Assembly: GCF_000585335.1 (NCBI RefSeq)
Contig: NZ_KK073872.1
Coordinates: 3,215,283 to 3,279,282, forward strand
Length of the DNA: 64,000 nt
Reading direction: 5' to 3'
Source: Cloacibacillus evryensis DSM 19522
Lineage (GTDB): Bacteria > Synergistota > Synergistia > Synergistales > Synergistaceae
In this document: positions 49,536 through 64,000 of the stretch, piece after piece
How positions within the stretch are numbered: the stretch's first letter is position 1
Layout of the letters: every line of letters begins with the position of its first letter
The notes under the pieces: generated by a model
Database searches by the model: none
Told to the model about the DNA's origin: nothing
The model's input: the letters and a program-made list of their open reading frames with translations, nothing else
Position numbers and translations under genes: made by a program

Positions 49536-50891
49536 TCAGCTTTCGGGTGTAACCAGACGCCCGTCGTAAAAAACGGTGCCGCCTCCGCCGTATAGGTAAA
49601 TTGTCTTCCCTCGCAAAATAGTTCTGACTGGCAAACCGCGGCCGGATAATCCGGTGAAGGCGGATATTTTATTTTTATAGAACAGGGAATCCTTTGTGAT
49701 GCGCCACAGCAGGTTGGGATCAAATATAACGAGGTCCGCGTCATAACCGACCTTGACCGCGCCTTTTTGGCCGTATAGGCCAAAGATCTTCGCCGGATTC
49801 GCGGACAGAGCTCTGGCAAGCAGCGTTGGAGAACATCCTCTTTGATTTATGGCATATTCAAAGAATAACTGCATTGTGCTTTGGAGTCCGCTTATTCCTC
49901 CCCACGCGCCAAATATCCCGTGCCGAGAAACATCTTTTTCGTCCTCCATGCAGGGGGAATGGTCTGAACAGATGACGGACAGAACACCGTTGACAACGTA
50001 ATCCCATAACTTTTTTTGCTCGTCGGCGGCTCTTAGGGGTGGAGCACATTTAAAAAGCGGCCCTTTTGTCAGTAAATCCGTCTCGTTAAAGATGAGATAG
50101 TGCATACAGGTTTCTGCCGTTATCGGCAGGCCGCATCTTTGCGCCGATCCGATCAGTTCCGCTGCATCCGGATGGCTTACGTGGCAGATGTGGGCGCGGA
50201 CTCCAGTTTTCCTTACCAGCGCGATAACATTTTTTACGGCGGTAAGTTCCGCGGATACCGGTCTTGTGGCTAAATAATCCCGCCAGCCGCAATTATTTTT
50301 ATTAAAAAATTTACTCTCTTCGCCCTTGATAATGGAGTAATCCTCCGCATGGAAGCCGATCAGACCGTCAAATTTTAAAACCTCTTCAACGACCTTTGCT
50401 ATGGTCTCTTCCCCAAGAGTCTGGTAATCTTCCGACACCGGACCAAGAAATATTTTATATGCCACACATCCGGCTTTGTGCAATTCTTTTATATCGTCGA
50501 TATTGTAGTCAAGCGCGGCGCCCCAAAACGCATAATCCACAGCAGCACGGCCGGACAGAACTCCGATTTTCTTTGAAAAGGCGTTTAGGTTAAACAGCGG
50601 GGGCTCGTTCTGGAGGGGCATGTCGATAACCGTTGTAACCCCTCCGGCCGCCGCCGCGGAGGTGCCTGCGTTGAAATCTTCACGCCACGTAAACCCAGGA
50701 TCGTTGAGATGCACATGGCAGTCCACCAGTCCAGGGAAAATATATTTTCCCTGAGCGTCAATAACCTCAGCGGCACAATCAGAAGGCAATTCCCTCATGG
50801 CGGTGATTTTACCATCTTTCACACCTATATCTGCGCAAACGACCTCTTCCTCAAGTACAATTTTTCCACCCGAGACGATCAAATCATACAC
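49536..50891 (-). CDS. Allantoinase/dihydropyrimidinase-family cyclic amidohydrolase (first copy)
   Basis: A 451-residue metal-dependent amidohydrolase that opens a cyclic ureide. Metal ligands: HVHLNDPG (HxH), the carbamylated-lysine strand VAYKIFLG, FHAED and CHVSH histidines, and the aspartate in CSDHSPCMEDE. The FTWREDFNAGTSAAAAGGVTT stretch is allantoinase-like. The best start is GTG at 50891, with GGAGG seven bases upstream; a GTG at 50897 overlaps that site. It lies below a terminator (50933-50971) separating it from the aminotransferase gene. A second copy sits at 52205-53563. Specificity (allantoin versus hydantoin or dihydropyrimidine) cannot be told by eye. Confidence 0.85.
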   Translation of the reverse strand: MYDLIVSGGKIVLEEEVVCADIGVKDGKITAMRELPSDCAAEVIDAQGKYIFPGLVDCHVHLNDPGFTWREDFNAGTSAAAAGGVTTVIDMPLQNEPPLFNLNAFSKKIGVLSGRAAVDYAFWGAALDYNIDDIKELHKAGCVAYKIFLGPVSEDYQTLGEETIAKVVEEVLKFDGLIGFHAEDYSIIKGEESKFFNKNNCGWRDYLATRPVSAELTAVKNVIALVRKTGVRAHICHVSHPDAAELIGSAQRCGLPITAETCMHYLIFNETDLLTKGPLFKCAPPLRAADEQKKLWDYVVNGVLSVICSDHSPCMEDEKDVSRHGIFGAWGGISGLQSTMQLFFEYAINQRGCSPTLLARALSANPAKIFGLYGQKGAVKVGYDADLVIFDPNLLWRITKDSLFYKNKISAFTGLSGRGLPVRTILRGKTIYLYGGGGTVFYDGRLVTPES

Positions 50892-50932
50892 TTGCACACC
50901 TCCAATTTACGGCAGTCATCCTTTGCATCAAA

Positions 50933-50971
50933 AATTTAGATGGCGTATAAACTAACTGCGCCATCTAAATT
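50933..50971 (-). terminator. Terminator between pucG and the first allantoinase-like gene
   Basis: AATTTAGATGGCG (50933-50945) and CGCCATCTAAATT (50959-50971) form a 13-bp perfect stem with a 13-base loop; on the minus strand TTTTTG follows. It may be partial, setting lower expression of the last two genes. Confidence 0.75.
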
Positions 50972-50991
50972 CAATTTCATTAATTTTGAAG

Positions 50992-52176
50992 CTATTTCGC
51001 AGACAGAACCTCCAGTGCCGCGCCTGTGTCGCATTTGTATCCATATGTGTTGAATGCGTCGCAGAGCGCCACTGTCAGCAACGCCATTTTTGCGGGGTTC
51101 GAGTTGACTCCCATAAGTCCGACTCGGTGGATTTTCCCTTTGAGTTCGCCAAGGCCGCCGCCGATCTCTATGTTGTATTTATCCATGAGATATTTGCGTA
51201 TCACCGCTTCATTCACGCCCTCAGGGGTGTAGTAAGTGGTCAGGCTCGGCAGGCGGTATTGTTCTTCCACCACCAATTTCAGCCCCATGGCCTCCAGTAC
51301 TTTCCAGAAGAGCCGCGCGTTGGACCAGTGACGCTGCCAGCGCTTTTCGTTTCCCTCTTCGAGGATGATACGCAGCGCCTCGTTGAGCGCATAGGTCATG
51401 TTGATCGGCGCGGTATGGTGGTAGAAACGATCTTCTCCCCAATAGCGCATTATCATGTTAAGGTCAAGGTACCAATTTTTGACGGGCACAGAGCGATTTC
51501 TTATCCATTCACCCATGCGTGGGGAAACGGTCAGCGGCGCCAGGCCAGGAGGGCAGTTGAGGCATTTCTGGGTCCCGCTGTATGTCATATCAAATTTAAG
51601 CCTCTCAACGGGGACTTCGACGCCTCCGAGGGAAGTCACGCAATCAACAAGCAGGAACATTCCTGCTTCGTGTACGAGCCTGGATATTTCGTCGAGCGGC
51701 TGCAGGACGCCAGTGGAGGTCTCAGCGTGGACGATACCGACGACCTTCGCATCGGGGTTGTCGTTGATGGCTTTTTGCAGGTCGGCTGGGTCAATGGGTT
51801 TACCCATCGGCGAGCTGACGACGACAACATTGGCTCCGTAGCGGGAGGCGACGTCGGTCATTCTTTGCCCAAAAACACCGTGGACGCAGATGATGACTTT
51901 CATCTCCGGAAGTACCGTGTTGGCCCAGGCGGCCTCCATGCCGGCGCTTCCAGTTCCAGGCATCGCCATGGTGAGCTCGTTTTTCGTCTGAAAAACGTAT
52001 TTGAGGAGTTCCCTGGTCTCATTCATGATCCCAAGGAAATCGGGATCAAGGTGTCCAAGCATTGGTTCGCTCATCGCCCGCAGCACGCGCTGGTCGGCGT
52101 TGGAGGGTCCGGGGCCCATAAGTAATTTTTCTGCTGTCTTACGCAGCGGTAATGTCATCCCTGTTTTCAGTTCCAT
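50992..52176 (-). CDS. pucG: Class V aminotransferase, (S)-ureidoglycine-glyoxylate aminotransferase-like (PucG)
   Basis: A 394-residue PLP enzyme. The family pattern is clear: LLMGPGPSNADQRVLRAM, MAMPGTGSAGMEAAWAN, HAETSTGVLQPL, LVDCVTSLGGVEV and the PLP lysine in YSGTQKCLNCPPGLAPL. PucG converts ureidoglycine and glyoxylate to oxalurate and glycine. The close relatives are serine- and alanine-glyoxylate aminotransferases, so the assignment rests on the neighbouring allantoinases and AllE. I choose ATG 52176, with AAGGGAG about twelve bases upstream; a longer frame to 52197 lacks a site. It lies 28 bases after the second allantoinase-like gene. Confidence 0.8.
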   Translation of the reverse strand: MELKTGMTLPLRKTAEKLLMGPGPSNADQRVLRAMSEPMLGHLDPDFLGIMNETRELLKYVFQTKNELTMAMPGTGSAGMEAAWANTVLPEMKVIICVHGVFGQRMTDVASRYGANVVVVSSPMGKPIDPADLQKAINDNPDAKVVGIVHAETSTGVLQPLDEISRLVHEAGMFLLVDCVTSLGGVEVPVERLKFDMTYSGTQKCLNCPPGLAPLTVSPRMGEWIRNRSVPVKNWYLDLNMIMRYWGEDRFYHHTAPINMTYALNEALRIILEEGNEKRWQRHWSNARLFWKVLEAMGLKLVVEEQYRLPSLTTYYTPEGVNEAVIRKYLMDKYNIEIGGGLGELKGKIHRVGLMGVNSNPAKMALLTVALCDAFNTYGYKCDTGAALEVLSAK

Positions 52177-52204
52177 CTTGTGTTCGGCTCCCTTCATTCA
52201 GACA

Positions 52205-53563
52205 TTAATTTTTCTTGTTGCAATCCAACAACTTACCATGTATTAAATTGATGACGCCGTTATCAAAAACACATTTCCCTCTTACGAATGTCATCACCAC
52301 CTTCCCCGTGATCTCCATTCCGTGGTATGGAGTGTGTTTGTTCTTATAAAAAAGTTTTTCTTGGGAGACCGTCCATTTTGCCACCGGATCAAAGACCGAG
52401 AAATCTGCGTCACACCCGACGGCAATAGCCCCCTTTTGAGGCCAAAGTCCAAATATTTTGGCCGCTTTTGTGGATGTTAATTGTGCAAGTTCCTCTATAC
52501 CAAGCCCTCTTTTTATTACTCCATAATTGAAAAGAATCGGCAAGAGCGTTTGAACTCCGGTTACTCCTCCCCAAACATCCCAAAAATTGCCGCGCGGCGA
52601 TACTTTCTGAGATAATGTCGAAGGAGAATGATCGGAACTTACGATATCAATTTTCCCCGACAACAGCATCTCCCACATACCCTCCACGTCATCCTGCTTT
52701 CTCACGGGAGGCGTACATTTTAGAAATCCCTGCTGTTTTTCAAGATCGTCTTCGGTAAAAATCAGGTAGTGAGGACATGTCTCCACCGTGGCCTTGATTC
52801 CCCGGCTTTTGGCGGCGGTCACTTTCCTCACCACACTGGGAAGGGTTGCGTGACAAATATGAACGCGGGCACCACTGATTTCGGCGGCCTCTAAAACCAT
52901 GTCCACCGCCTTTTCTTCGGAAATTGGAGGATGCGCACAGAGAAAGTCCCTTACGCTGTTGTTACCCGATGATCTGGCATCGATCTCCATCGCGCTGATA
53001 ATTTCCTCATCTTCACAATGGACGCCTATCAAAAAATTGTGCTTCGCCGCTTCCAGCATTCCTTTAAGAAGGATATCTCTGGTAACATAAGGAAAATCGT
53101 CCCCCGCACAGCAGGTGAATGCTTTGAAGGCACAAACGCCCGCGGCTGCCATTTCCGCCAGGTCTTCCGTATTGTCATTTACCAGCCCGCCCCATAGGGC
53201 ACAGTCGACGACTGCTCTTTCAAGAACCGCATCCTTTTTCCGGGTAAGCGCCGCAGATGAGATTATCGTCGGGTTTCCGGAGAGAGGCATGTCCGCCACC
53301 GTCGTCACACCGCCGGCGGCGGCGGACATTGTGCCGGTACGAAGATCCTCCCGATCAGGAAGCCCCGGATCATTAAAATGAACATGCAGGTCAATGACTC
53401 CCGGGAACAGATACTTGCGGCCGACATCAATAGTGGACACCGCCGGCAGACATCTTCCGCATGAAACTATATCGGCGATCTTTTCATCCTTTACGCAAAC
53501 ATCAGAGAGGATGACGCCCTGAGGGGTAACGACCATACCGTTCTTCAGCACAAGGTCAAACAT
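52205..53563 (-). CDS. Allantoinase/dihydropyrimidinase-family cyclic amidohydrolase (second copy)
   Basis: A 452-residue paralogue of the enzyme at 49536-50891. All expected metal ligands are present: DLHVHFNDPG, the lysine in CAFKAFTCC, GVHCED, CHATLPS and SSDHSPSTL. The N-terminal core LPDREDLRTGTMSAAAGGVTTV matches the first copy's counterpart. The two differ around the lysine strand (YKIFLG against FKAFTCC) and the loop after DHSP, which suggests different substrates. Its ATG has AGGAAAGAG upstream. It lies 17 bases after the carbamoyltransferase gene in the main operon, so it is cotranscribed with the ABC transporter and AllE. Confidence 0.85.
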   Translation of the reverse strand: MFDLVLKNGMVVTPQGVILSDVCVKDEKIADIVSCGRCLPAVSTIDVGRKYLFPGVIDLHVHFNDPGLPDREDLRTGTMSAAAGGVTTVADMPLSGNPTIISSAALTRKKDAVLERAVVDCALWGGLVNDNTEDLAEMAAAGVCAFKAFTCCAGDDFPYVTRDILLKGMLEAAKHNFLIGVHCEDEEIISAMEIDARSSGNNSVRDFLCAHPPISEEKAVDMVLEAAEISGARVHICHATLPSVVRKVTAAKSRGIKATVETCPHYLIFTEDDLEKQQGFLKCTPPVRKQDDVEGMWEMLLSGKIDIVSSDHSPSTLSQKVSPRGNFWDVWGGVTGVQTLLPILFNYGVIKRGLGIEELAQLTSTKAAKIFGLWPQKGAIAVGCDADFSVFDPVAKWTVSQEKLFYKNKHTPYHGMEITGKVVMTFVRGKCVFDNGVINLIHGKLLDCNKKN

Positions 53564-53580
53564 ATCTCTTTCCTGAAAGG

Positions 53581-54597
53581 CTATTTCAAGCCCACCATTG
53601 CGGCGATCAAAGCCATCCTTATAGGCACGCTGAAGGCCATTTGCTGGAAATAGAGCTGATATTCGCTGTTATCGATCGCCGGATCAAACTCAACGTCGTT
53701 CCGCGGCAGAGAGTGCATGATGCCGACCCTTTTGCCATTTTTCTTTTTTATCGTTTCCAGTCCTTCAAGCGTAACGTAAAATGGTTTTATCAGATCCAGG
53801 AATGCCGCACGGTCTTCGGGATTATCCTTGGGCACACTGCAGCCGGGCAGGTAGCAGGCGTCGCAGCCTGCCATCAGATCCATGATTTCGGCATTGCTCA
53901 AATCGTTGTATATCTCGTATTTCGCTCCGGCCTCGTTCAGCTTGTCCTGCACCAAAGGAAGCATCTTATTTTTACTTGAACCGACATAGATGATTTCAGC
54001 TCCCATCTGGGCAAGCCCCATAGCGAAAGAATGTCCGCTCCTCGCCCTTGAAAGATCCGGCGTGGCGATCATGATCTTCATCCCTTCAAAATTTCCAAAG
54101 GCCCGATAGCATGTGTAGAGGTCAAGTATCCCCTGCGTCGGGTGCGTAACATTTCCCCAGCCGCAGCTTATCACTGGTACCGTGGCTCCCTCCAGAGAAC
54201 GAAATACGTTTCCGTCATCATAATGACGCAATCCGATTATGTCAGCATAGGTCGATACGGTCCGCAGATAATCAAAAAGGGACTCGCCTTTGGCGGTTGA
54301 CGAGCTGTGAAGCGGATTAGATTCTGAAAGCACGCTGCCTCCAAGCCTTACCATTGCGTCTTCGGTACTAAAACGCGTCCTCGTGCTCGGCTGGAAAAAT
54401 ATTGTCCCTAAAACTTTATTATTCATCAAGTTCAGTCGGTGCTTCCAGAAGGGCTCTATCATTTGAGCCGCCTCAAAAAGGCTTATGAGCTGCTCGCGTT
54501 TCCAGTCTGTGAGGAAGATAAAATTTTTTCCCCGCATTCCGGTCTCTTCTAATTTATCTGCGATATTAACCGGCGCAAAACTTCTTGGAAGTGTCAT
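53581..54597 (-). CDS. Aspartate-transcarbamoylase-like carbamoyltransferase of unassigned substrate
   Basis: A 338-residue transcarbamoylase. The carbamoyl-phosphate site is intact: FFQPSTRTRFSTEDAM, RLGGSVLSESNPLHSSSTAKGESL (S and K of the 80s loop), and HPTQGILDLYT. The second-substrate region departs from true ATCase: HPLPR becomes MHSLPRNDVEFDP, and the arginine loop reads LPGCSVPKDNPEDRAAF. Pyrimidine genes are absent nearby; allantoinase and ureidoglycine genes surround it. It may split a carbamoyl group from a ureido compound to give carbamoyl phosphate, hence ATP. Start at 54597 with AAGGAGA upstream. The substrate is my inference. Confidence 0.8.
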   Translation of the reverse strand: MTLPRSFAPVNIADKLEETGMRGKNFIFLTDWKREQLISLFEAAQMIEPFWKHRLNLMNNKVLGTIFFQPSTRTRFSTEDAMVRLGGSVLSESNPLHSSSTAKGESLFDYLRTVSTYADIIGLRHYDDGNVFRSLEGATVPVISCGWGNVTHPTQGILDLYTCYRAFGNFEGMKIMIATPDLSRARSGHSFAMGLAQMGAEIIYVGSSKNKMLPLVQDKLNEAGAKYEIYNDLSNAEIMDLMAGCDACYLPGCSVPKDNPEDRAAFLDLIKPFYVTLEGLETIKKKNGKRVGIMHSLPRNDVEFDPAIDNSEYQLYFQQMAFSVPIRMALIAAMVGLK

Positions 54598-54624
54598 CTC
54601 TGCTCTCCTTAACACATTTATTCT

Positions 54625-55407
54625 TTAAAGTTCCACATCTCTGTTGAAGTCTTTTGAATATACGTAGCTGAACCGCTCGCGGCCCGTCGCGTACGTCGCC
54701 TGTTCCGTATACGCGCCCATGAAAATAAAATCATCTTTTTTGACATGCACACGGTCAGGCCCCAGCGTGTAGATACCCTCCCCCGAGGTAACGTACGCCC
54801 CGTGCTCCTGTACGTGGGTCTCAATAAACGGATGGCAGGCACCAGGATCAAATGATAGGATGTGGAAGTTGAAATCAAAGGCAATGTCATTGACGGGCAG
54901 GAAATCTTTCAAAAAGACGTTATCCATCTCCGCATAATTCATCTCCTTGGCATTATTGATATTGCCGATCACCGGGGAGGGCAGGGGCACGCCTTTAACG
55001 GGAATGTAGCGCTGCTTATACAAAATCACCCGGAATATCCCGCCGGACGTGTTAAAGAGCTCCAGCCCTTTGTCGGCCGGGCAAAATGCAAATCCGCCCT
55101 GCTGTAATTTTTCAGTTCCGTCCTCGATCTTTACAGTAAGTTCTCCTTCTCCATCCATAAAATAAACAAACGTCTCGATCCCGTCTCCGCCCCACGGCAT
55201 AGTTGTCTTTGCTCCCGGTGCAACCTCGGAGACAATCATTACAAAACTTGCTCCAAGTTTGGGGGAGGCTAGGATCGTTGACGCAAACCCCTCAAAACCA
55301 GGGAGGGTATTTATCACTCTGCCTTCCGGCGGAATAACAGAATATACTCCATGCTTGATGACTGCTCTTGTCGACAAAGGTTCAGTTGGGTAACCAATTC
55401 TTCCCAT
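54625..55407 (-). CDS. allE: (S)-ureidoglycine aminohydrolase, bicupin (AllE-like)
   Basis: A 260-residue two-cupin protein. The first cupin has KTTMPWGGDGIETFVYFMDGEGE; the second has ACHPFIETHVQEHGAYVTSGEG, with the H/E/H/Q residues that bind Mn2+ in AllE, and then RVHVKKDDFIFMGAYTEQATYATG. AllE removes ammonia from (S)-ureidoglycine to give ureidoglycolate, the step after allantoate amidohydrolase. The end (YVYSKDFNRDVEL) is AllE-like. It lies between the Liv-type ATPase gene and the transcarbamoylase gene, with gaps under 50 bases, which anchors the whole operon in ureide catabolism. Confidence 0.88.
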   Translation of the reverse strand: MGRIGYPTEPLSTRAVIKHGVYSVIPPEGRVINTLPGFEGFASTILASPKLGASFVMIVSEVAPGAKTTMPWGGDGIETFVYFMDGEGELTVKIEDGTEKLQQGGFAFCPADKGLELFNTSGGIFRVILYKQRYIPVKGVPLPSPVIGNINNAKEMNYAEMDNVFLKDFLPVNDIAFDFNFHILSFDPGACHPFIETHVQEHGAYVTSGEGIYTLGPDRVHVKKDDFIFMGAYTEQATYATGRERFSYVYSKDFNRDVEL

Positions 55408-55450: not shown

Positions 55451-56179
55451 CTAGCGACTCCCGCCAAGGTAAGCCTCTTCGATCTCTTTATTGTGCAAAA
55501 GGTCAGAGGAATTTCCCTCCATGATGATTTGCCCCGTCTGGAGAACATAGGCCCGGTGCGACAACAGCAACGCTTTTCTGGCATTCTGCTCAACGATCAG
55601 TATGGTCGTGCCGAACTGCCTGTTAATCTCGGTCAGCTCCTTGAATATTTCGCTGATAATGATAGGAGCCAGGCCCAAAGAGGGCTCATCCAGCAGAAGG
55701 ACGCGCGGTTTTGCCATCAAAGCCCTGCCTATCGCCAACATCTGTTGCTCCCCTCCTGACAGGGTGCCGGCATACTGCGCCCTTCGCTCGTTCAGTCTTG
55801 GAAAAAGCTTAAAAATACTTTCCATTTCAGATGCGATCTCTTCTCTGTTTTTTATAGGAAAGGCTCCCATATTAAGATTTTCAATAACCGTCAGCGGCGC
55901 AAAAACCTTTCGTCCCTCGGGAGACAGAGATATACCGGCAGAGACAATGTTGAAGCTTTCTTTAGGGAGCAGTTTCCCATCTAAAAACACTTCCCCGCCG
56001 GCCCGCGGGACAGCTCCCATTATGGCGTTCATCAGCGTTGATTTTCCCGCTCCGTTGGCACCGATCACGGCGACTATCTCACCGCGGTAGACATCCAGGT
56101 TCACACCCTTCAAAGCCTGGATAGCACCGTAATTGACCATCAGGTTATTCACGGAAAGCAGCGCAGCTTTGTCCTTCAT
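55451..56179 (-). CDS. livF: ABC transporter ATPase, LivF type
   Basis: A 242-residue ATPase of a branched-chain-amino-acid-type importer. Walker A is GANGAGKSTLMNAI, the signature TLSGGEQQMLAIGRAL, and Walker B VLLLDEPSLGLAP, all typical LivF. The start ATG at 56179 is two bases after the livG stop. With LivG it powers uptake through the LivHM permease. The context of allantoinases and AllE suggests a ureide or purine-derived ligand and not a branched-chain amino acid. Motifs and length are complete. Confidence 0.92.
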   Translation of the reverse strand: MKDKAALLSVNNLMVNYGAIQALKGVNLDVYRGEIVAVIGANGAGKSTLMNAIMGAVPRAGGEVFLDGKLLPKESFNIVSAGISLSPEGRKVFAPLTVIENLNMGAFPIKNREEIASEMESIFKLFPRLNERRAQYAGTLSGGEQQMLAIGRALMAKPRVLLLDEPSLGLAPIIISEIFKELTEINRQFGTTILIVEQNARKALLLSHRAYVLQTGQIIMEGNSSDLLHNKEIEEAYLGGSR

Positions 56180-56181
56180 CG

Positions 56182-56952
56182 CTAATCGTCCTCTCCCAGA
56201 TAAGCAACGAGGACGTCCCTGTTGTTTTGTATCTCATTAGGAGTGCCCTCCGCTATCTTCGCACCAAAATTAACGCAGATGATATGCGGGCAAATTTTCA
56301 TAACAAGCTCCATATGATGCTCTATCAACAGGATCGTCAGGTTGAAATCAGAATGCACTTTAAGTATCAGCTCGTTGAGCTGTTCGATCTCTTCCGCGTT
56401 CATACCTGCGGCAGGCTCGTCCAATAGGAGCAGTTCCGGCTCAAGAGCGATCGCGCGTGCCATTTCGAGACGCCTTTGAAGGCCATATGGCAAAGTCCCC
56501 GCCTCCTGCAGGTAACGATCCACCAGACCTACCCTTTCCAGCAATGCCATGCTCCGTTCTTTGGTAGCCTTTTCCTTGCCGTTCCAGCGTCCCAGGTGGC
56601 TCACCGCCTCCAGGAAAGAATATTCTTGCTGCTGCTGCATCGCCGTCATCACGTTTTCCAAAACAGACGCGTCATTGAAAAGCCTGAGGTTTTGGAATGT
56701 GCGCGATATCCCCATTCTAACAATCTGATCCGGCCTAAACCTGAGCAAAGATTTGCCATTGAAAAAGATTTTGCCTGAAGATACTTTATATACACCGGAG
56801 ATAAGATTGAATATCGTCGTCTTGCCGGCTCCGTTGGGGCCAATGATGGCGGTAAGTTCTCCTTGTGCGATTGTCATACTTATGTCTTTTACGGCGTGTA
56901 CCCCACCAAATGATTTGTTGACGTTTTCCAATCTCAGTATTTCATTATTCAT
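56182..56952 (-). CDS. livG: ABC transporter ATPase, LivG type
   Basis: A 256-residue ATPase. Walker A is GPNGAGKTTIFNLI, followed by GISRTFQNLRLF (LivG-specific loop), the short signature LPYGLQRRLEMARAI, and Walker B LLLLDEPAAGMNAEE. Its ATG at 56952 follows the livM stop by five bases, with AAGGTG upstream; a triplet at 56961 would be a non-standard start and is rejected. It pairs with LivF. Confidence 0.92.
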   Translation of the reverse strand: MNNEILRLENVNKSFGGVHAVKDISMTIAQGELTAIIGPNGAGKTTIFNLISGVYKVSSGKIFFNGKSLLRFRPDQIVRMGISRTFQNLRLFNDASVLENVMTAMQQQQEYSFLEAVSHLGRWNGKEKATKERSMALLERVGLVDRYLQEAGTLPYGLQRRLEMARAIALEPELLLLDEPAAGMNAEEIEQLNELILKVHSDFNLTILLIEHHMELVMKICPHIICVNFGAKIAEGTPNEIQNNRDVLVAYLGEDD

Positions 56953-56957
56953 ACAAA

Positions 56958-57833
56958 TCACCTTCCCGCCGCCGCAAGTTTTCTTTTACCGGCAATAAAC
57001 TCCTTTATATGTTTGGGGGTGAGTTCATGTTTACCCATGATTCCCGAAGGTCTCAGAACCATTATCAATACCAACACCATCCCATATACCAACATACGGT
57101 ATTTTGACATCGGCCGGAAAAGTTCCGTGACTAACGTAAGGATGGTCGCGCCTACAAGACTTCCGCTCATTGATCCTAGTCCGCCGAAAACAACCAGAGC
57201 TACCAGTTCCGTAGATTTCGCGGAGTCAAACATTACTGGCTGAACGAAAGACATATAGCCTGCCATCAAAGCTCCGGCTATTCCACAATAGAACGCCGAT
57301 ATTGCCAAGCTAAAAACTCTGTAATGCGCAGTGTGAAATCCAAGCAGCGATGAGGCTTGACTGTCGTCTCTGCAGGCCTTGAAAGCCCTGCCATAGTTGC
57401 CGTCGATTAGAAAAAACATCGCGGCCGCCATGAAAACCAAAAATGATAGTGCTACCGGCACCGTTGTAAAAGCGTCTATTCCTGGGTAGCCCCGCGCTCC
57501 GTTCGTGACGGAACCGCCATTTTCGATCAGAAGCCGGATTGTCTCTCCCAAACCTAACGAAGCGATGGAATAGTAGTCTCCTTCTAGTTTCAATGTCGGG
57601 ATACCTATAAGCCACCCAACGATCATTGATAAAATACCGCCGCAAACAACGCTTGGAAACCAGTGAACAGAGTATTCAACAGTCATGACCGCCGCAGTAT
57701 AGGCCCCTATAGCCATATATCCCGCGTGCCCTAAAGAGAAAATACCGGTAAAACCAGTAAGCAGAGAAACCCCCATGCCGGCAATGCAATTGATGCAAAG
57801 AAGAGCGATGATTCCCTCCATGTATCCCGACAT
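56958..57833 (-). CDS. livM: ABC transporter permease, LivM type
   Basis: A 291-residue inner-membrane permease with about eight to nine hydrophobic segments. It has the LivM signatures LLTGFTGIFSLGHAGYMAIGAYTA and GRAFKACRDDSQASSLLGFHTAHYRVFSLAISAF, the latter being the loop that contacts the ATPase. The best start is ATG 57833 with AGGTGG upstream; a GTG at 57842 directly abuts the livH stop. It forms the channel with LivH. Confidence 0.9.
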   Translation of the reverse strand: MSGYMEGIIALLCINCIAGMGVSLLTGFTGIFSLGHAGYMAIGAYTAAVMTVEYSVHWFPSVVCGGILSMIVGWLIGIPTLKLEGDYYSIASLGLGETIRLLIENGGSVTNGARGYPGIDAFTTVPVALSFLVFMAAAMFFLIDGNYGRAFKACRDDSQASSLLGFHTAHYRVFSLAISAFYCGIAGALMAGYMSFVQPVMFDSAKSTELVALVVFGGLGSMSGSLVGATILTLVTELFRPMSKYRMLVYGMVLVLIMVLRPSGIMGKHELTPKHIKEFIAGKRKLAAAGR

Positions 57834-57842
57834 ACAGCCCAC

Positions 57843-58724
57843 CTACACTTTCTCGCCAATTTGTTTATTGAAGAAACCTGTAGGCTTAAAGAGAAGCGTC
57901 AAAATAAGCAGTGAGAAAACTAGAATGTCACGGAATTGACTGGAAATATATGCGGTGGTCAGCATTTCGGCAAGCCCCAGCACCAGACTTCCTATTACAG
58001 CGCCCGGCAAAGAACCGAGGCCTCCGATGACAGCCGCGATAAAGGCCTTGATCGTAATTCCTCCCATCTGCGGATAGAGCGTGTATCTTGCAGATAAGAA
58101 GATGCCTCCGACGGCAGCCAATACGCCGGCAACAAAAAACACTATTGCTATTAACCGATTTACATTTACTCCCATTAGACCGGCAGTTCTAAGATTATAA
58201 GCGGCAGCCCTTATTGCAAGCCCCCATTTGGTTTTTATGAGGAAAAGCTGCAGTATCACCAAAAAAATGGCAGAGATTACCAACGAGAACAAATCAAAGT
58301 AACTTGCCGTTACAACCCCGCCTAAATTAATACTCCCGCTGGGGAAAATAGCCGGCAGCGCTCTGAACCTTCCGCCAACAGATACGACGAAAATATTCTC
58401 AATAACAATACTTATACCCATGGAAGCGATCATCAGATATATGGTCCTGGATGACCGTTCCCTTATGGGCCTGTATGCGAGCCTGTCTGTGAACACCGCG
58501 ACGACGCCGGCTCCAACCATTGCAGATATGGCGGCTGTGGCAATATCCATGCCGGCGGAGAGCATCGCATAATAGCAAATATAACCGCCGATCACCAAGA
58601 AACCACCATGTGCAAAATTCGAAAAGAGAAGGATCGAATATACCAAAGAATATCCGACTGCGATAAGCGCGTATACTGAACCTAAAGATAGACCGTTTAG
58701 TATCTGGCGAAGCAGTATTTCCAT
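57843..58724 (-). CDS. livH: ABC transporter permease, LivH type
   Basis: A 293-residue permease opening with ILNGLSLGSVYALIAVGYSLVYSIL and the LivH NFAHGGF stretch, both diagnostic. The conserved ATPase-contact loop is GLAIRAAAYNLRTAGLMGVNVNRL. About eight membrane segments. It is the first permease gene after the YtcJ-type amidohydrolase, 37 bases downstream, and abuts livM. Confidence 0.92.
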   Translation of the reverse strand: MEILLRQILNGLSLGSVYALIAVGYSLVYSILLFSNFAHGGFLVIGGYICYYAMLSAGMDIATAAISAMVGAGVVAVFTDRLAYRPIRERSSRTIYLMIASMGISIVIENIFVVSVGGRFRALPAIFPSGSINLGGVVTASYFDLFSLVISAIFLVILQLFLIKTKWGLAIRAAAYNLRTAGLMGVNVNRLIAIVFFVAGVLAAVGGIFLSARYTLYPQMGGITIKAFIAAVIGGLGSLPGAVIGSLVLGLAEMLTTAYISSQFRDILVFSLLILTLLFKPTGFFNKQIGEKV

Positions 58725-58761: not shown

Positions 58762-60405
58762 CTAGATGCTTATTGAAGAATCTCCCGCAAAGGTGATGCG
58801 ACCGCCCATAACCGTCATGTCAACGGGAATGGAGGCTATTTCGTTTGGCTTCACCAAGAAAGGATCTTCCTTTAAAATCACCATGTCCCCATATTTTCCA
58901 TTTTCCAACGTTCCCTTTAGCTTTGATTCGCCACAGACCTCCGCTGAGCCCAGCGTGTACATACGAAGCGCACGGTCAACCGTCAGGCTTTCATTGGGCA
59001 GCCATCCATTTACAGGCAGGCCCTCCGCGTTCGTCCTTGTGACTGCAACCTGTATCCCCCAAAGCGGGGCAAACGGTTCCACAGGAGAATCGCTGCTTCC
59101 TCCCAATTCTACGCCTACATCGAGAAGAGATTTCCATGCATAGCTTTCTTTTTCCCTTTTTTCTCCAACCCGGTCCTTGACCCAACGCCATTCGCTCGCG
59201 ACGAAGGGTGCCTGTACGTCGGCATTGACTCCCAGCCTCGCCATACGTTTATAAATTTCCTGATTTCCGACTTGACAATGAACTATGCGATGTTTCCATG
59301 GATTTGCATGTTTTTTCTGAAGAGATTCAATAATATCGAGAACTTTGGTACTTGCCGCGTCCCCGATAGAGTGAATGGCCATTTGCATGTCGCTAATATG
59401 AGCAAGAGTCATCATCTCTAAAAGTTCTTCATCACTATGGACGAAAAGCCCTTTCGTCTCCGGTGCGTCATAGTAGCTCTCCGCAAGAGCTGCCGTCCTT
59501 GATCCTAGAGAGCCGTCAACTATAATTTTTAACGGGCCGGTGTAGAACAATTCTCCGCCATCGCCGGTTCTGCGCCCTTGGGCAATAAATGGATTCAGCA
59601 TATCCATATTTCTCAGCAAATACTGCTGCCCTACTCTTAATGAAAGTTCTCCCGCCGCCGCCAATTTTGAATATGCGTCATCAAGAAAATCCACATCATT
59701 AAGAACCATGATCAAATCATCCGACTGTGCAGATGTCATTCCCGCCGCCGCGCCCAGCTGCGTCATCCTTTTTAAAAGGAATCGCGATCTTTCCGGTGTG
59801 ATTTTGGGAAGCAGTTTTTTTACCCAGCCATCAAGAGCCTCTCTGCGAACGACCCCCGTTACGTTGCCATCGGAATCTTTGTCAACAACGCCGCCTTTTA
59901 TACTAAATTTTTCATCAATTTTCGCTATCTCGAGCGCTTTTGTATTAAGGACGCCGACGATGCCGCAGCAACGCTGGTAAAGGATGGGACGGTCAGAACT
60001 TATTTTATCTAAATCATGCCTAGTGGGGTAGGCTTTGCCTGGGAATTTTTCCTGATCCCAGCCTCTGCCTAAAATCCATTCAGATTTACTTTGAATTGTT
60101 TCGGCATCTTTACGGCCTATTTCAATCATTTCACCTATCGAATTGACATTGCCTAGCCACGTTTCATCCATAACCTTAGAAGTTTCCATGAGGTGGATGT
60201 GACTGTCATAAAACCCGGGGAGGACGGTACGCCCTTTAAGGTCTACTTTTTGTACGCAACTATCACAGTTTGCCAGAACATGACTTGCCTGACCAATAGC
60301 GGCAATCCTTCCTTCGTCGATAAGTATTGCCTCCGCCTGCCTATGATCTGCAAATGGTCTGATCTTTCCATTAAAGAACGCTATTCTATTTTTACTAACA
60401 GTCAT
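58762..60405 (-). CDS. YtcJ-type metal-dependent amidohydrolase
   Basis: A 547-residue amidohydrolase-superfamily enzyme of the Amidohydro_3/YtcJ kind. Visible elements: VLPGFYDSHIHLME (HxH), the inserted domain with SEWILGRGWDQEKFP, GPLKIIVDGSLGSRTAAL, MAIHSIGDAAS, HRIVHCQVG and GGSSDSPVEPFAPLWGIQVA, with the family's terminal aspartate. No signal peptide. Such enzymes hydrolyse amide or cyclic amide bonds of varied substrates. It lies between the binding-protein gene and the permease genes of a Liv-type importer, so it probably acts on the imported compound. Start at ATG 60405 (GTGAGG upstream); a GTG at 60414 overlaps that site. Confidence 0.82.
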   Translation of the reverse strand: MTVSKNRIAFFNGKIRPFADHRQAEAILIDEGRIAAIGQASHVLANCDSCVQKVDLKGRTVLPGFYDSHIHLMETSKVMDETWLGNVNSIGEMIEIGRKDAETIQSKSEWILGRGWDQEKFPGKAYPTRHDLDKISSDRPILYQRCCGIVGVLNTKALEIAKIDEKFSIKGGVVDKDSDGNVTGVVRREALDGWVKKLLPKITPERSRFLLKRMTQLGAAAGMTSAQSDDLIMVLNDVDFLDDAYSKLAAAGELSLRVGQQYLLRNMDMLNPFIAQGRRTGDGGELFYTGPLKIIVDGSLGSRTAALAESYYDAPETKGLFVHSDEELLEMMTLAHISDMQMAIHSIGDAASTKVLDIIESLQKKHANPWKHRIVHCQVGNQEIYKRMARLGVNADVQAPFVASEWRWVKDRVGEKREKESYAWKSLLDVGVELGGSSDSPVEPFAPLWGIQVAVTRTNAEGLPVNGWLPNESLTVDRALRMYTLGSAEVCGESKLKGTLENGKYGDMVILKEDPFLVKPNEIASIPVDMTVMGGRITFAGDSSISI

Positions 60406-60475
60406 GATATCCACCTCACAAAAAAATCTATCTCTCTATCAGGTCAATTGAAATTATCTGCGCGATAAACTCCTT

Positions 60476-61621
60476 TTACTTAACCGTCCACGTCTCTACG
60501 TAGTACATTTTTCCAGAGCGGAACTGCTGAATGACGAGCGGCTTTGCGAGAGGGTCGTGTGTAGCCGGATCCATTGTAAGTTTAAAATGAGCGAGCTGGA
60601 GGTTTTTAGTTTTTTCGAGGGCGTTCTTTATGCTTTCTCCGTCATATTTTCCGGCCCTCTTAAGAGCGTCCGTAATTGCGTACATTATGTCATATGCCAT
60701 GACTACGCTGGTATATTCGGCCTCTTTTGCACCGTATTTTTTTTCATATTTTGCCAAAACTGACTGAACGTTCTTGTCCTCTAAGTCCATATTGCTGGAC
60801 CAGTAACTGTTATTCATCGTATCGCCGGCTATCTCGTACATCGTCATGCTAAAACCGTCGCCTCCCAACAGGGCCGGTTTCCAGCCCAGTTCCGCCGCCT
60901 GTTTTACCATCAGTCCCATTTCTTTATACATGGAAGGCATTACAAGGGCGCCGGCGCCAGTAGCTTTAGCCTTTGTCAATTGTGCTCTGAAGTCAACGTC
61001 TCCAGACCTGTAGCCATATGAAAATACTTTTCCGCCCAACTGCGTGTAACGCTCGACAAAAAACTGTTTTACACCTTCCGAAGACTCACTGCCTACGTCA
61101 TGCAGCAGCGCGGCTGTTTTGATTCCTAATTTCTTAAAAAGATAGTCGGCCATAACTGTTCCATGCCAAGGATCCGTTGCGCAGAGCCTAAACACATACG
61201 GGCGAACCTTCTTTTTCTTGGCATCGAACGTTGCCGCCGGATTGGAAGCAAATGGAGAAACGAGCGGGACACGGGCCCTTTCAAGTATAGGTGCCAGCGC
61301 CATTACCATTCCGCTGCTATTCGCGCCTCCCAAAACCTGTACGCCATCATCGATCATACGGCGGGCGGAGACGATTACGTCTTCCTGCCTTCCTCTGTCA
61401 TCGTAAACTATGAACTCCAGCTTTTTTCCGTTGACTCCACCCGCAGCGTTGATTTCGTCTATCGCGATATTGGCACCCCGAACCTGCTCCTGTCCAAAGG
61501 TGGATCCTTCTCCGGTTAATGATGCCAAGAATCCGATCTTGATGGTATCTGCCGCCATTGCTGAAGAGACGAAAATCAAAACGAGGCTTAATGCTGTCAA
61601 CGCTCTTTTTATTGTTTTCAC
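60476..61621 (-). CDS. livJ: ABC transporter substrate-binding protein, LivJ type
   Basis: A 381-residue periplasmic binding protein of the Leu/Ile/Val family. The signal peptide (ALTALSLVLIFVSSAMAA) is followed by IKIGFLASLTGEGSTFGQEQVRGANIAIDEINAAGGVNGKK, the standard first lobe. Later YVFRLCATDPWHGTVMADYL and GDTMNNSYWSSNM line the ligand cleft region. The likely start is GTG 61621 after GGAGGAG; an ATG at 61636 overlaps that site. It heads the ureide operon and is divergent from the PucR-type regulator. Its ligand is predicted to be a ureide or purine derivative from context only. Confidence 0.9.
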   Translation of the reverse strand: MKTIKRALTALSLVLIFVSSAMAADTIKIGFLASLTGEGSTFGQEQVRGANIAIDEINAAGGVNGKKLEFIVYDDRGRQEDVIVSARRMIDDGVQVLGGANSSGMVMALAPILERARVPLVSPFASNPAATFDAKKKKVRPYVFRLCATDPWHGTVMADYLFKKLGIKTAALLHDVGSESSEGVKQFFVERYTQLGGKVFSYGYRSGDVDFRAQLTKAKATGAGALVMPSMYKEMGLMVKQAAELGWKPALLGGDGFSMTMYEIAGDTMNNSYWSSNMDLEDKNVQSVLAKYEKKYGAKEAEYTSVVMAYDIMYAITDALKRAGKYDGESIKNALEKTKNLQLAHFKLTMDPATHDPLAKPLVIQQFRSGKMYYVETWTVK

Positions 61622-62081
61622 ACAAATCTCCTCCATTTTAAATCAAGGTCGTTGAATAACTTTCATGCTATCTGTCCTACAAAAACAAAACACTCATACC
61701 AAACCGGTCTACGGACACTGTGTCTCTTTGTAAAACATTAATGAGATATAGTTCTGCCCCTATATTCTCCCTCCTTTCTGTCAGGCTGGAACAATTGGAA
61801 ATTTCTGGCAGCAGATCATTTAATTGCCTTGGCTACACACTTCCCATGAATAACCAAGGAGGGGGTAAAACAGTGGTAATTCAATTAAATGCCGCTAAAT
61901 ACCTTTGTACAATAATCACTTCATGCAACTAAATATATAATGGCGTACCTATTTTGTCATCGGAAATACAGGACAAATGTCAACGAGAAATATGTCTATA
62001 TCAGATAAAAAATAGTCCTCTAAAATCCTGATTTTGATATAATACTATTATCTTTTTGCAGCGCGAAGGGGGAAAATCATA
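61622..62081. other. Divergent spacer between livJ and the PucR-type gene
   Basis: About 460 bases, AT-rich, with no convincing gene. TTTGTC (61953-61958) and GACAAA (61972-61977) form a small inverted repeat about 105 bases before the PucR-type start. Promoters for both directions should lie here, but I cannot single out a strong -35/-10 pair. The ribosome site of the regulator (GAAGGGGG) is at about 62065. Confidence 0.4.
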
Positions 62082-63254
62082 ATGATATGGACGACTGACA
62101 AGATGGTAAGTCTTCTGGAAAAGACAGAAATAAGCGACGTCTTGCAAGAGGCTTTTTTAATCTCCGGCAACAGTTTTTCATACAGGGATAACATTACATT
62201 AAAGACTATCGCCTACTCCGAATCGCAGGAATTTCTAAGCACGGTTAGGTCGTGTCCGCTGCGCGAAACGGCAAAAAGGTATAAGGTCCGTCAAATCACA
62301 GAAAACAGCGTCGTGCGTGGTTATTTAATTGTCGATAAGATTACGGAACTGTCAGAGGACAGCAGAAACCTTACCGAGACAGTATTGCTGGCAATTAAGT
62401 TGTTGCTGAGGCAAACGATAACAAAAAAAACTCACGAAGCACGGATAACAAGCAATCTATTTTCAGAACTTATATCAGGCAAAATCACGACGCAGGAATC
62501 CTTGTCAAGCCGCCTTCGGCTGCTTTCAATAAAATTCCCCTGGAGCATGGTGGTATTATCCGCCGACTTCCCACATGTCACAAAGGAGGAAGAAGTGTAT
62601 ATAGAAGAACTTCTCACCAACAAAGTCAGTAATTTTTACCCTGATTCGTACATATATCACGATGGCGCACTTTTTTCGTGTATTCTCGCGTTGAAAAGGG
62701 TCACCTCGGCTGAAATATTGGAAAAGGATATACGTATGATAGCCGATCAGGTAAATTTGGAAATTTCAAGAAAAAAGGTGCTCTGTGACAAGATCCCATA
62801 TTGGGGGTGCGGGAAAATATATCCTTCGCTGCTTTCATTGAAAAAAAGCTATTATGAGGCATCTCAGTCTGTTCTTTACGCGAAAATTTATTCTAATAAA
62901 AAAAACGATATCATCTTTTGGACGGATACCGGCGCTTTCAGATTAATAGGGCGATGCGCCGCCACTCAGGATGCGATCGATTTTCATAATGAAATCCTCT
63001 CACCATTTCTGGAATATGAATATTTAATAGAGACACTGGGCGGGCTGGACGCAAATAACTGGAATTTAGCAGGTACGGCAGAATCTCTGTCATGCCATTA
63101 CAATACCATAAAGTACCGCTATAAAAAGATCCGTGATATCCTGACGGAGGGCGGGTACGATATTGAAAGCCATGATACGCGTTTTGACATTTCCATCGCT
63201 TTAAGGCTCTACAAAATTTATATGGAAAGAGGATTTTCCAATGAGGAAAAATAA
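62082..63254 (+). CDS. PucR-family (CdaR-like) transcription regulator
   Basis: A 390-residue regulator. The C-terminus carries the PucR helix-turn-helix (residues about 315-375): LIETLGGLDANNWNLAGTAESLSCHYNTIKYRYKKIRDIL. The middle resembles the GGDEF-like CdaR domain (LEKDIRMIADQVNLEISRKKVL, then YWGCGKIYPSLLSLKKSYYEASQSVLYAKIY). The N-terminus would sense a ligand. PucR proteins activate purine and allantoin catabolism in Bacillus and relatives, which agrees with the divergent ureide operon. The end overlaps the M20-type gene by 14 bases, so both are probably cotranscribed. It probably controls the livJ operon in response to allantoin or a related ureide. Confidence 0.85.
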   Translation: MIWTTDKMVSLLEKTEISDVLQEAFLISGNSFSYRDNITLKTIAYSESQEFLSTVRSCPLRETAKRYKVRQITENSVVRGYLIVDKITELSEDSRNLTETVLLAIKLLLRQTITKKTHEARITSNLFSELISGKITTQESLSSRLRLLSIKFPWSMVVLSADFPHVTKEEEVYIEELLTNKVSNFYPDSYIYHDGALFSCILALKRVTSAEILEKDIRMIADQVNLEISRKKVLCDKIPYWGCGKIYPSLLSLKKSYYEASQSVLYAKIYSNKKNDIIFWTDTGAFRLIGRCAATQDAIDFHNEILSPFLEYEYLIETLGGLDANNWNLAGTAESLSCHYNTIKYRYKKIRDILTEGGYDIESHDTRFDISIALRLYKIYMERGFSNEEK

Positions 63255-64000
63255 AGAAACCTCTCAGCCCGCGGATAACGCGCTGGCTATCTTGCAGCAG
63301 CTTATCAGGATACGCACGAACCATACAGAGGGATACGAGATGGATGCCGTAAAATATATCGCCTCTCTCTTTCCGCCGAAAACAGAAATGTCCGTAATCG
63401 ATCATGGCGGCAACAGAGGATCTCTGATCGTCGAAATCAAAGGTCGGGTACCAGATAAAAAGATTGCTGTCTTTAGTTACTTGGATACGGTAAAAAATAT
63501 TGGCATGGACCGTTGGGAACACCCTCCTTTTTCCGCCGATTATATAAACGGCGCGGTCCACGGGAAAGGCGCGGCGAATATGAAGGGAGGAGTAACTTCG
63601 GCAATATTGGCCATGATGGAACTTAGCAGGACGCCGCCCCCGCCATTGTCGGTGTTGATGTGCCTCACGGCAGACGGCACAGGAGATGGGCTGGGTGCCG
63701 TCGAAATAGCAGAAAAAGGCTACCTTAATGGTGTTGTTGAAGCAATTTTTACCAGCGCAACAAAAGAAAAAATCGGCATATCGCAAAAGGGCGCCCTGTG
63801 GACAAAAGTAGAGGTGACTGGAACCACAAGTTATTCGGCATCTCCTTCAAGCGGCACAAACGCCGTTGAAGCCCTTATTGCATTTTGTCAGCGCCTTCGT
63901 AAGGAGGTAATAGGGAAAAAAAACAAAAAACACCTTTTGTTTGGGCTGCCCAGCTGTACAATCACGCAATTCAACAGTGGGACGGGAGAGGTCAATCAGA
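63241..64000 (+). CDS. M20-family peptidase homologue lacking metal ligands (5' part; runs off the right edge)
   Basis: The first 253 codons of an ArgE/DapE/AllC-type (M20) protein. The fold pattern is clear, yet the catalytic residues are replaced. HLDTV is SYLDTV (Y80 for His). The bridging Asp is N113 in GKGAANMKGG. The catalytic Glu pair is G146-T147 in LTADGTGDGLG. The later Glu (EPT) is S172 in FTSAT. The lid-domain His is Y198 in SYSASPSSGTNAVEAL. Only D82 remains. Family members use two Zn2+ or Mn2+ ions, so this should not hydrolyse in the usual way. It starts inside the pucR-like gene (14-base overlap). It may be a binding or regulatory pseudoenzyme. Confidence 0.82.
   Translation, partial: MRKNKETSQPADNALAILQQLIRIRTNHTEGYEMDAVKYIASLFPPKTEMSVIDHGGNRGSLIVEIKGRVPDKKIAVFSYLDTVKNIGMDRWEHPPFSADYINGAVHGKGAANMKGGVTSAILAMMELSRTPPPPLSVLMCLTADGTGDGLGAVEIAEKGYLNGVVEAIFTSATKEKIGISQKGALWTKVEVTGTTSYSASPSSGTNAVEALIAFCQRLRKEVIGKKNKKHLLFGLPSCTITQFNSGTGEVNQ

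Follow-up and report, generated by a model that had tools for sequence, protein, structure and literature searches.

We have identified in Cloacibacillus evryensis an M20-family protein of the DapE/ArgE type that retains none of the five metal ligands of its family, although its gene is under ordinary purifying selection and overlaps by 14 bases the gene of a PucR-type regulator. The 5′ part of this pseudoenzyme gene, recognized from its M20 Pfam domains and from the ligand positions read in an alignment, occupies positions 63241..64000 (+ strand) of the window, that is, of the whole 64,000-nucleotide stretch that was analysed; the regulator gene, recognized from its HTH_30 and GGDEF_2 matches, precedes it at 62082..63254 (+). 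The reading frame of the M20 gene is open through the window end and its remaining 413 bp lie beyond it, the full gene (G000:C1:3278523-3279695, equivalent to L021:2524-3696, in the single 3,488,464-bp contig of the window's genome, G000) encoding 390 amino acids. We put at about an even chance the explanation that the dead M20 protein is a dedicated effector-binding partner of the regulator encoded with it. In broader terms, its present role is probably that of a sensor component and not of an enzyme, because relatives with partly lost sites adjoin the same type of regulator across the phylum.

Both M20 domains of the window protein score above their cut-offs (PF01546, 62.1 bits; PF07687, 63.7 bits), and the top NCBIfam matches are DapE/ArgE-type models, at 178 bits and, for TIGR01910 (DapE-ArgE), 171 bits, each below its cut-off. 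A PDB sequence search gave 7uoi, a DapE, as the best match. The 253-residue fragment encoded in the window yielded a structure prediction of moderate quality (pLDDT 66) with, again, 7uoi as the best structural match, while a full-length relative with one of the five ligands (L128, of set III described below) is predicted to have an intact DapE fold (pLDDT 87, pTM 0.85; TM 0.86 to 7uoi). The domain scores and this model agree with the initial annotation in that the M20 fold has been retained. Descent from AllC finds no support in the NCBIfam ranking, which favours the DapE/ArgE models: AllC models (TIGR03176 / NF0067xx tested) are absent among the 25 NCBIfam matches listed for the window protein, and the window M20 gene is not among the matches listed in an AllC search of its own genome.

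The roles of the ligand positions in M20 enzymes are established family knowledge. Mapped through the alignment, the His of HxD has become Y80, the bridging Asp N113, the general base Glu G146, the adjacent ligand Glu T147, the distal Glu S172, and the lid (oxyanion) His Y198, all as the initial annotation had described. Its count of all but one metal ligand replaced has to be corrected, as the C-terminal His, the fifth ligand, is S361 (its codon lies outside the window), which makes the loss complete: zero of five ligands remain, and the general base Glu and the lid His have been replaced as well. Tyr, Asn, Gly, Thr and Ser stand in their place; none of the positions has a His, Asp or Glu as a substitute. 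Because ligands, general base and oxyanion His are all gone, the M20 mechanism is unavailable to the window protein, which would have no hydrolase activity. With DapE and ArgE (PDB 7uoi, 3ic1, 5vo3, 7rsf) it shares the fold, the two-domain layout and the dimerisation domain, as well as D82 (the Asp of HxD, not a ligand), the MKGG loop, the lid Asn252 and the lid Arg265; it differs from them in the replaced residues and in its scores below the family cut-offs. Arg265, just one of the ligand contacts, aligns with Arg258 of Haemophilus influenzae DapE (HiDapE), which contacts sulfate and, by inference or docking, substrate, inhibitor or substrate-like groups (PMC4012986, PMC10815964).

When 188 Synergistota genomes were searched with a profile, the protein fell into a clade of 27 sequences scoring 430-575 bits, the next sequence reaching at most 291 bits, and in a maximum-likelihood tree of these 27 and 12 outgroup M20s the branch separating the clade has a support of 100/100. 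Arg265 and Asp82 are invariant in all 27 members. The complete set of five ligands is present in none of them, as compared with 10 of the 12 nearest outgroup M20s, so that homologues with intact ligands, which the initial annotation would have taken as a refutation, do not occur within the clade. Its members fall into three sets. In set I (n=12, family f3, including a protein of Fretibacterium fastidiosum) the sole change is that of the distal Glu to Lys (12/12); set II (n=3, family f4) combines a bridging Asp changed to Asn with a C-terminal His changed to Tyr; and set III (n=12, family f1 and three f3 copies; support 99/95) keeps 0 to 3 ligands, the window gene and its two closest relatives representing its extreme, with none.

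Among the genome contigs, a scan with the single protein found no relatives, and an alignment-based scan found 11 loci. One of these, L126:3187-4353, is a clade member accompanied by pucR; its contig, 4.5 kb long, is binned as Caldisericia, and as no other searched Caldisericia genome holds a further member at clade-level scores, the case reflects either transfer or mis-binning. Apart from the PucR-linked clade, a separate pair of M20s (L064:4046-5266 in G030 and L065:7909-9060 in G082) shows partial ligand loss, with the lid His changed to Phe/Ser, the C-terminal His to Gly/Ala and, in G030, a Glu to Leu. There is no pucR on the stretches examined around either gene, and in this pair the M20 site may have been inactivated independently.

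The association with the regulator is a feature of the clade as a whole. A PucR-type gene lies within 3.1 kb of the M20 gene in 26 of the 27 members, with no gene between them in 22, and the expectation that the M20 gene would stay beside pucR in other Synergistota is borne out; the only member with no pucR nearby (in G028) comes from a contig of 11 kb. The gap between the two genes ranges from -47 to +3 bp in seven set III copies, some starts being uncertain, and the overlap of 14 bases in the window, already given in the initial annotation, is confirmed by the two reading frames (62082-63254 and from 63241). Genomes with two copies (G000, G001, G115, G119, G122) have a pucR for each. As the window's genome encodes seven HTH_30 proteins above cut-off, fewer than 1% of its genes would have a pucR neighbour by chance. 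In a tree that includes unlinked PucRs, the linked ones group together (77/94) with a topology that largely mirrors that of the M20 tree, and the family distances of the two proteins are correlated (Mantel r 0.907, with none of 2000 permutations as high), a co-divergence that is in part due to the physical linkage of the genes.

Metabolite sensing by PucR-type regulators is poorly known. The window regulator has the HTH_30 (47.4 bits, cut-off 27) and GGDEF_2 (24.6 bits, cut-off 24.5) domains, in common with the purine catabolism regulator PucR of Bacillus subtilis, with which it also shares a divergent position beside an allantoin operon. Unlike the latter, it has no match to the N-terminal PucR domain PF07905 at E<=0.1, leaving room for a separate sensor, and it is paired with a dead M20. 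PF07905 is also missing in the tested partners of the other M20s (the second copy of G000, G015, G019, G095, both copies of G122, and G166). The linked PucRs of G027, G090 and G111 do match it, only that of G111 above the cut-off, and these might sense without an M20 partner.

The pair is divergent from a ureide/Liv operon, from which it is separated by the intergenic region 61637..62081; in an alignment with the congener (L052), the pucR-proximal half of this region is strongly conserved. Here, a repeat search together with the congener alignment reveals an exact inverted repeat, TTTGTC-N13-GACAAA (61953..61977), whose arms are kept in the congener while the spacer has changed. With one mismatch allowed, 0.07 such sites are expected per window, and the repeat is a candidate operator to which PucR would bind. 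On the opposite strand (-), the operon begins with a LivK-like branched-chain-type ABC substrate-binding protein recognized from its translation (60476..61636; 95% identical in the congener G001) and includes LivF, LivG, LivM and LivH-like ABC transporter genes, read from the open reading frames (55451..58724, -), in the same order in G001. Within this Liv transporter operon sits an amidohydrolase (58762..60414, -), assigned by reading and lacking any NCBIfam match at E<=1e-20, which is possibly an undescribed enzyme of the ureide pathway. The ureide cluster proper, which belongs to purine breakdown (49536-55407, all on the - strand), has three genes above curated cut-offs, namely an (S)-ureidoglycine aminohydrolase of the AllE cupin type (54625..55407; TIGR03214, 306.8 bits, cut-off 200), the allantoinase AllB (52205..53563; TIGR03178, 467.5 bits, cut-off 357.85) and a second allantoinase-type gene (49536..50897; TIGR03178, 432.4 bits). 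A carbamoyltransferase of the aspartate/ornithine superfamily (53581..54615; aspartate carbamoyltransferase model TIGR00670, 194.3 bits, below the cut-off of 236.95) adjoins the allantoin genes and may be a ureide or oxamate carbamoyltransferase, and an aminotransferase (50992..52197; NCBIfam aminotransferase matches all below cut-off) is perhaps, from gene context, of the ureidoglycine-glyoxylate type. The ureide cluster of the window contains no allantoate amidohydrolase. AllC, of the same superfamily as the window M20, is the M20 step expected in a pathway like the adjoining one; nevertheless, the best models of the window protein are those of DapE/ArgE, and the AllC-like genes of this genome lie elsewhere (C1:847010 and C1:3155925, both below the AllC cut-off).

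The neighbours of the other pairs widen the range of possible ligands. Many set I and set II pairs adjoin genes for a TRAP transporter, glutamate formimidoyltransferase, methenyl-THF cyclohydrolase and formate-THF ligase; the pairs of G015 and G027 adjoin a sodium symporter and an agmatinase/formimidoylglutamase-like ureohydrolase; and the second copy in G000 and G001 adjoins a sodium symporter and a creatininase-like gene. Their common theme is small nitrogen-rich metabolites rather than ureides alone. Since the protein resembles DapE/ArgE rather than AllC and the other pairs adjoin other catabolic genes, the loci probably differ in their ligand, an allantoin-pathway intermediate being a first guess for this locus only. 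Of the reading put forward in the initial annotation, the part that finds good support is a pseudoenzyme maintained by selection in association with a PucR-type regulator (a clade of 27, none with the full ligand set and 26 of them near pucR, with matching trees and purifying selection), whereas the binding of a ureide by the window M20 is something that we only infer.

Proximity to pucR is not in itself a sufficient sign of a regulatory role, and we have rejected it as such, because several M20s with intact ligands also have another pucR gene at a distance of about 1.5 kb (L068, L120, L121 and L124, in the f3/f4 outgroup). These intact outgroup proteins suggest that the ancestor of the clade was likely an active M20 within a PucR-controlled operon. 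They are also compatible with a different role, in which the M20 protein would be a catabolic or allosteric subunit that heterodimerises either with an active M20 or with another enzyme of the pathway, and pucR would be adjacent only as the regulator of the operon. Dimerisation of M20 proteins runs through the lid domain, which the window protein keeps (the PF07687 match), and in f3/f4 the gene sits in a PucR-TRAP-formimidoyltransferase operon, the TRAP and formimidoyltransferase genes often following it, an order that also fits the M20 as an operon member under PucR control. Nonetheless, neither the window nor L052-L054 has an active M20 gene beside the pair, the two AllC-like M20s of the genome are distant, and in the most eroded lineage the M20 gene is coupled by overlap to pucR itself and not to the catabolic genes; we consequently regard a subunit role as unlikely.

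Still less probable, in our opinion, is that the protein remains an enzyme with a non-standard site (without metal, with one metal, or containing Lys), a proposal that concerns at least the 12 members in which the distal Glu has become Lys. These keep the His, the Asp, both Glu, the lid His and the C-terminal His, and mono-zinc DapE structures are known (3isz, 4o23). The replacement itself, within a KPT motif (L058, L105, L106, L108, L112, L118, L119 and others), is unusual, and the Lys could place a positive charge in the second metal site. Such an activity is, however, difficult to extend to the window protein, from which all the ligands, the general base and the oxyanion His are missing.

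The loss of the site is neither an error nor an accident of this genome. The same seven positions have been lost in the congener G001 (86% identity) and in G029, of another genus of the same family (63%). The replacement is identical in the three genomes at five of them; the distal one varies (S, N or H), as does the lid one (Y, Y or F). Between G000 and G001, dN/dS is 0.05-0.06 for the M20 gene, 0.04-0.06 for pucR and 0.01-0.07 for the catabolic neighbours, rough values since dS is high. The shared losses and a dN/dS of about 0.05 exclude both a sequencing or assembly error and a pseudogene, and they settle the concern about a local oddity or sequencing fault raised in the initial annotation. 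A gene decaying after a recent lifting of selection, which the gradation of ligand loss within the clade might evoke, is extremely improbable and is already contradicted by the low dN/dS, by reading frames that are intact in all 27 members, by the loss of the same positions in relatives at 63-86% identity and by the maintained linkage to pucR.

Returning to the M20 protein as an effector-binding partner, the two domains would close over a small metabolite of the pathway, held in the cleft with the participation of the lid Arg265, and the protein, in either its ligand-bound or its ligand-free form, would then contact the regulator, switching on the divergent ureide/Liv operon (and the pucR-M20 pair). 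For the clade as a whole, the corresponding proposal, that it is a family of subunits derived from M20 proteins and sensing effectors on behalf of PucR-type regulators, is more tentative, and we hold it at somewhat below even confidence. It would have started in a PucR-controlled operon with the neutralization of one ligand (distal Glu to Lys or bridging Asp to Asn); in the window lineage, the whole metal site would subsequently have been lost and the gene coupled to pucR and, with a change of ligand, redeployed next to ureide, creatininase and ureohydrolase operons.

Gal3, NmrA and Ngs1 (PMC5063960) are known cases of dead enzymes that have acquired a role in transcriptional control; all have lost catalytic residues, with the ligand site kept in Gal3 and Ngs1. 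As in Gal3 and Ngs1, the window M20 combines lost catalytic residues with a retained contact residue, under purifying selection and in conserved association with a transcription regulator. The known cases are, however, fungal and of other folds, and for the M20 protein the binding of a ligand and the contact with the regulator are what we infer. Among bacteria, a parallel would be the DhaQ/DhaS pair of Lactococcus. A text search of a 2024 review of pseudo-metallopeptidases (PMC11266112) returned no M20 entry, and in the open literature searched we found neither an M20 pseudoenzyme associated with PucR nor an M20 example of an enzyme-derived sensor.

All in all, the window M20 would extend to this family the enzyme-derived sensors represented by Gal3 and Ngs1, and labelling its gene automatically as an M20 'succinyl-diaminopimelate desuccinylase' would be wrong. 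M20 homologues with four, three, two, one and no ligands, nearly all of them beside a matching PucR, constitute a natural record of the passage from an enzyme to a likely sensor, and the M20/PucR pair of the window, with a PucR devoid of its usual sensor domain, offers a testable pair for ureide sensing.
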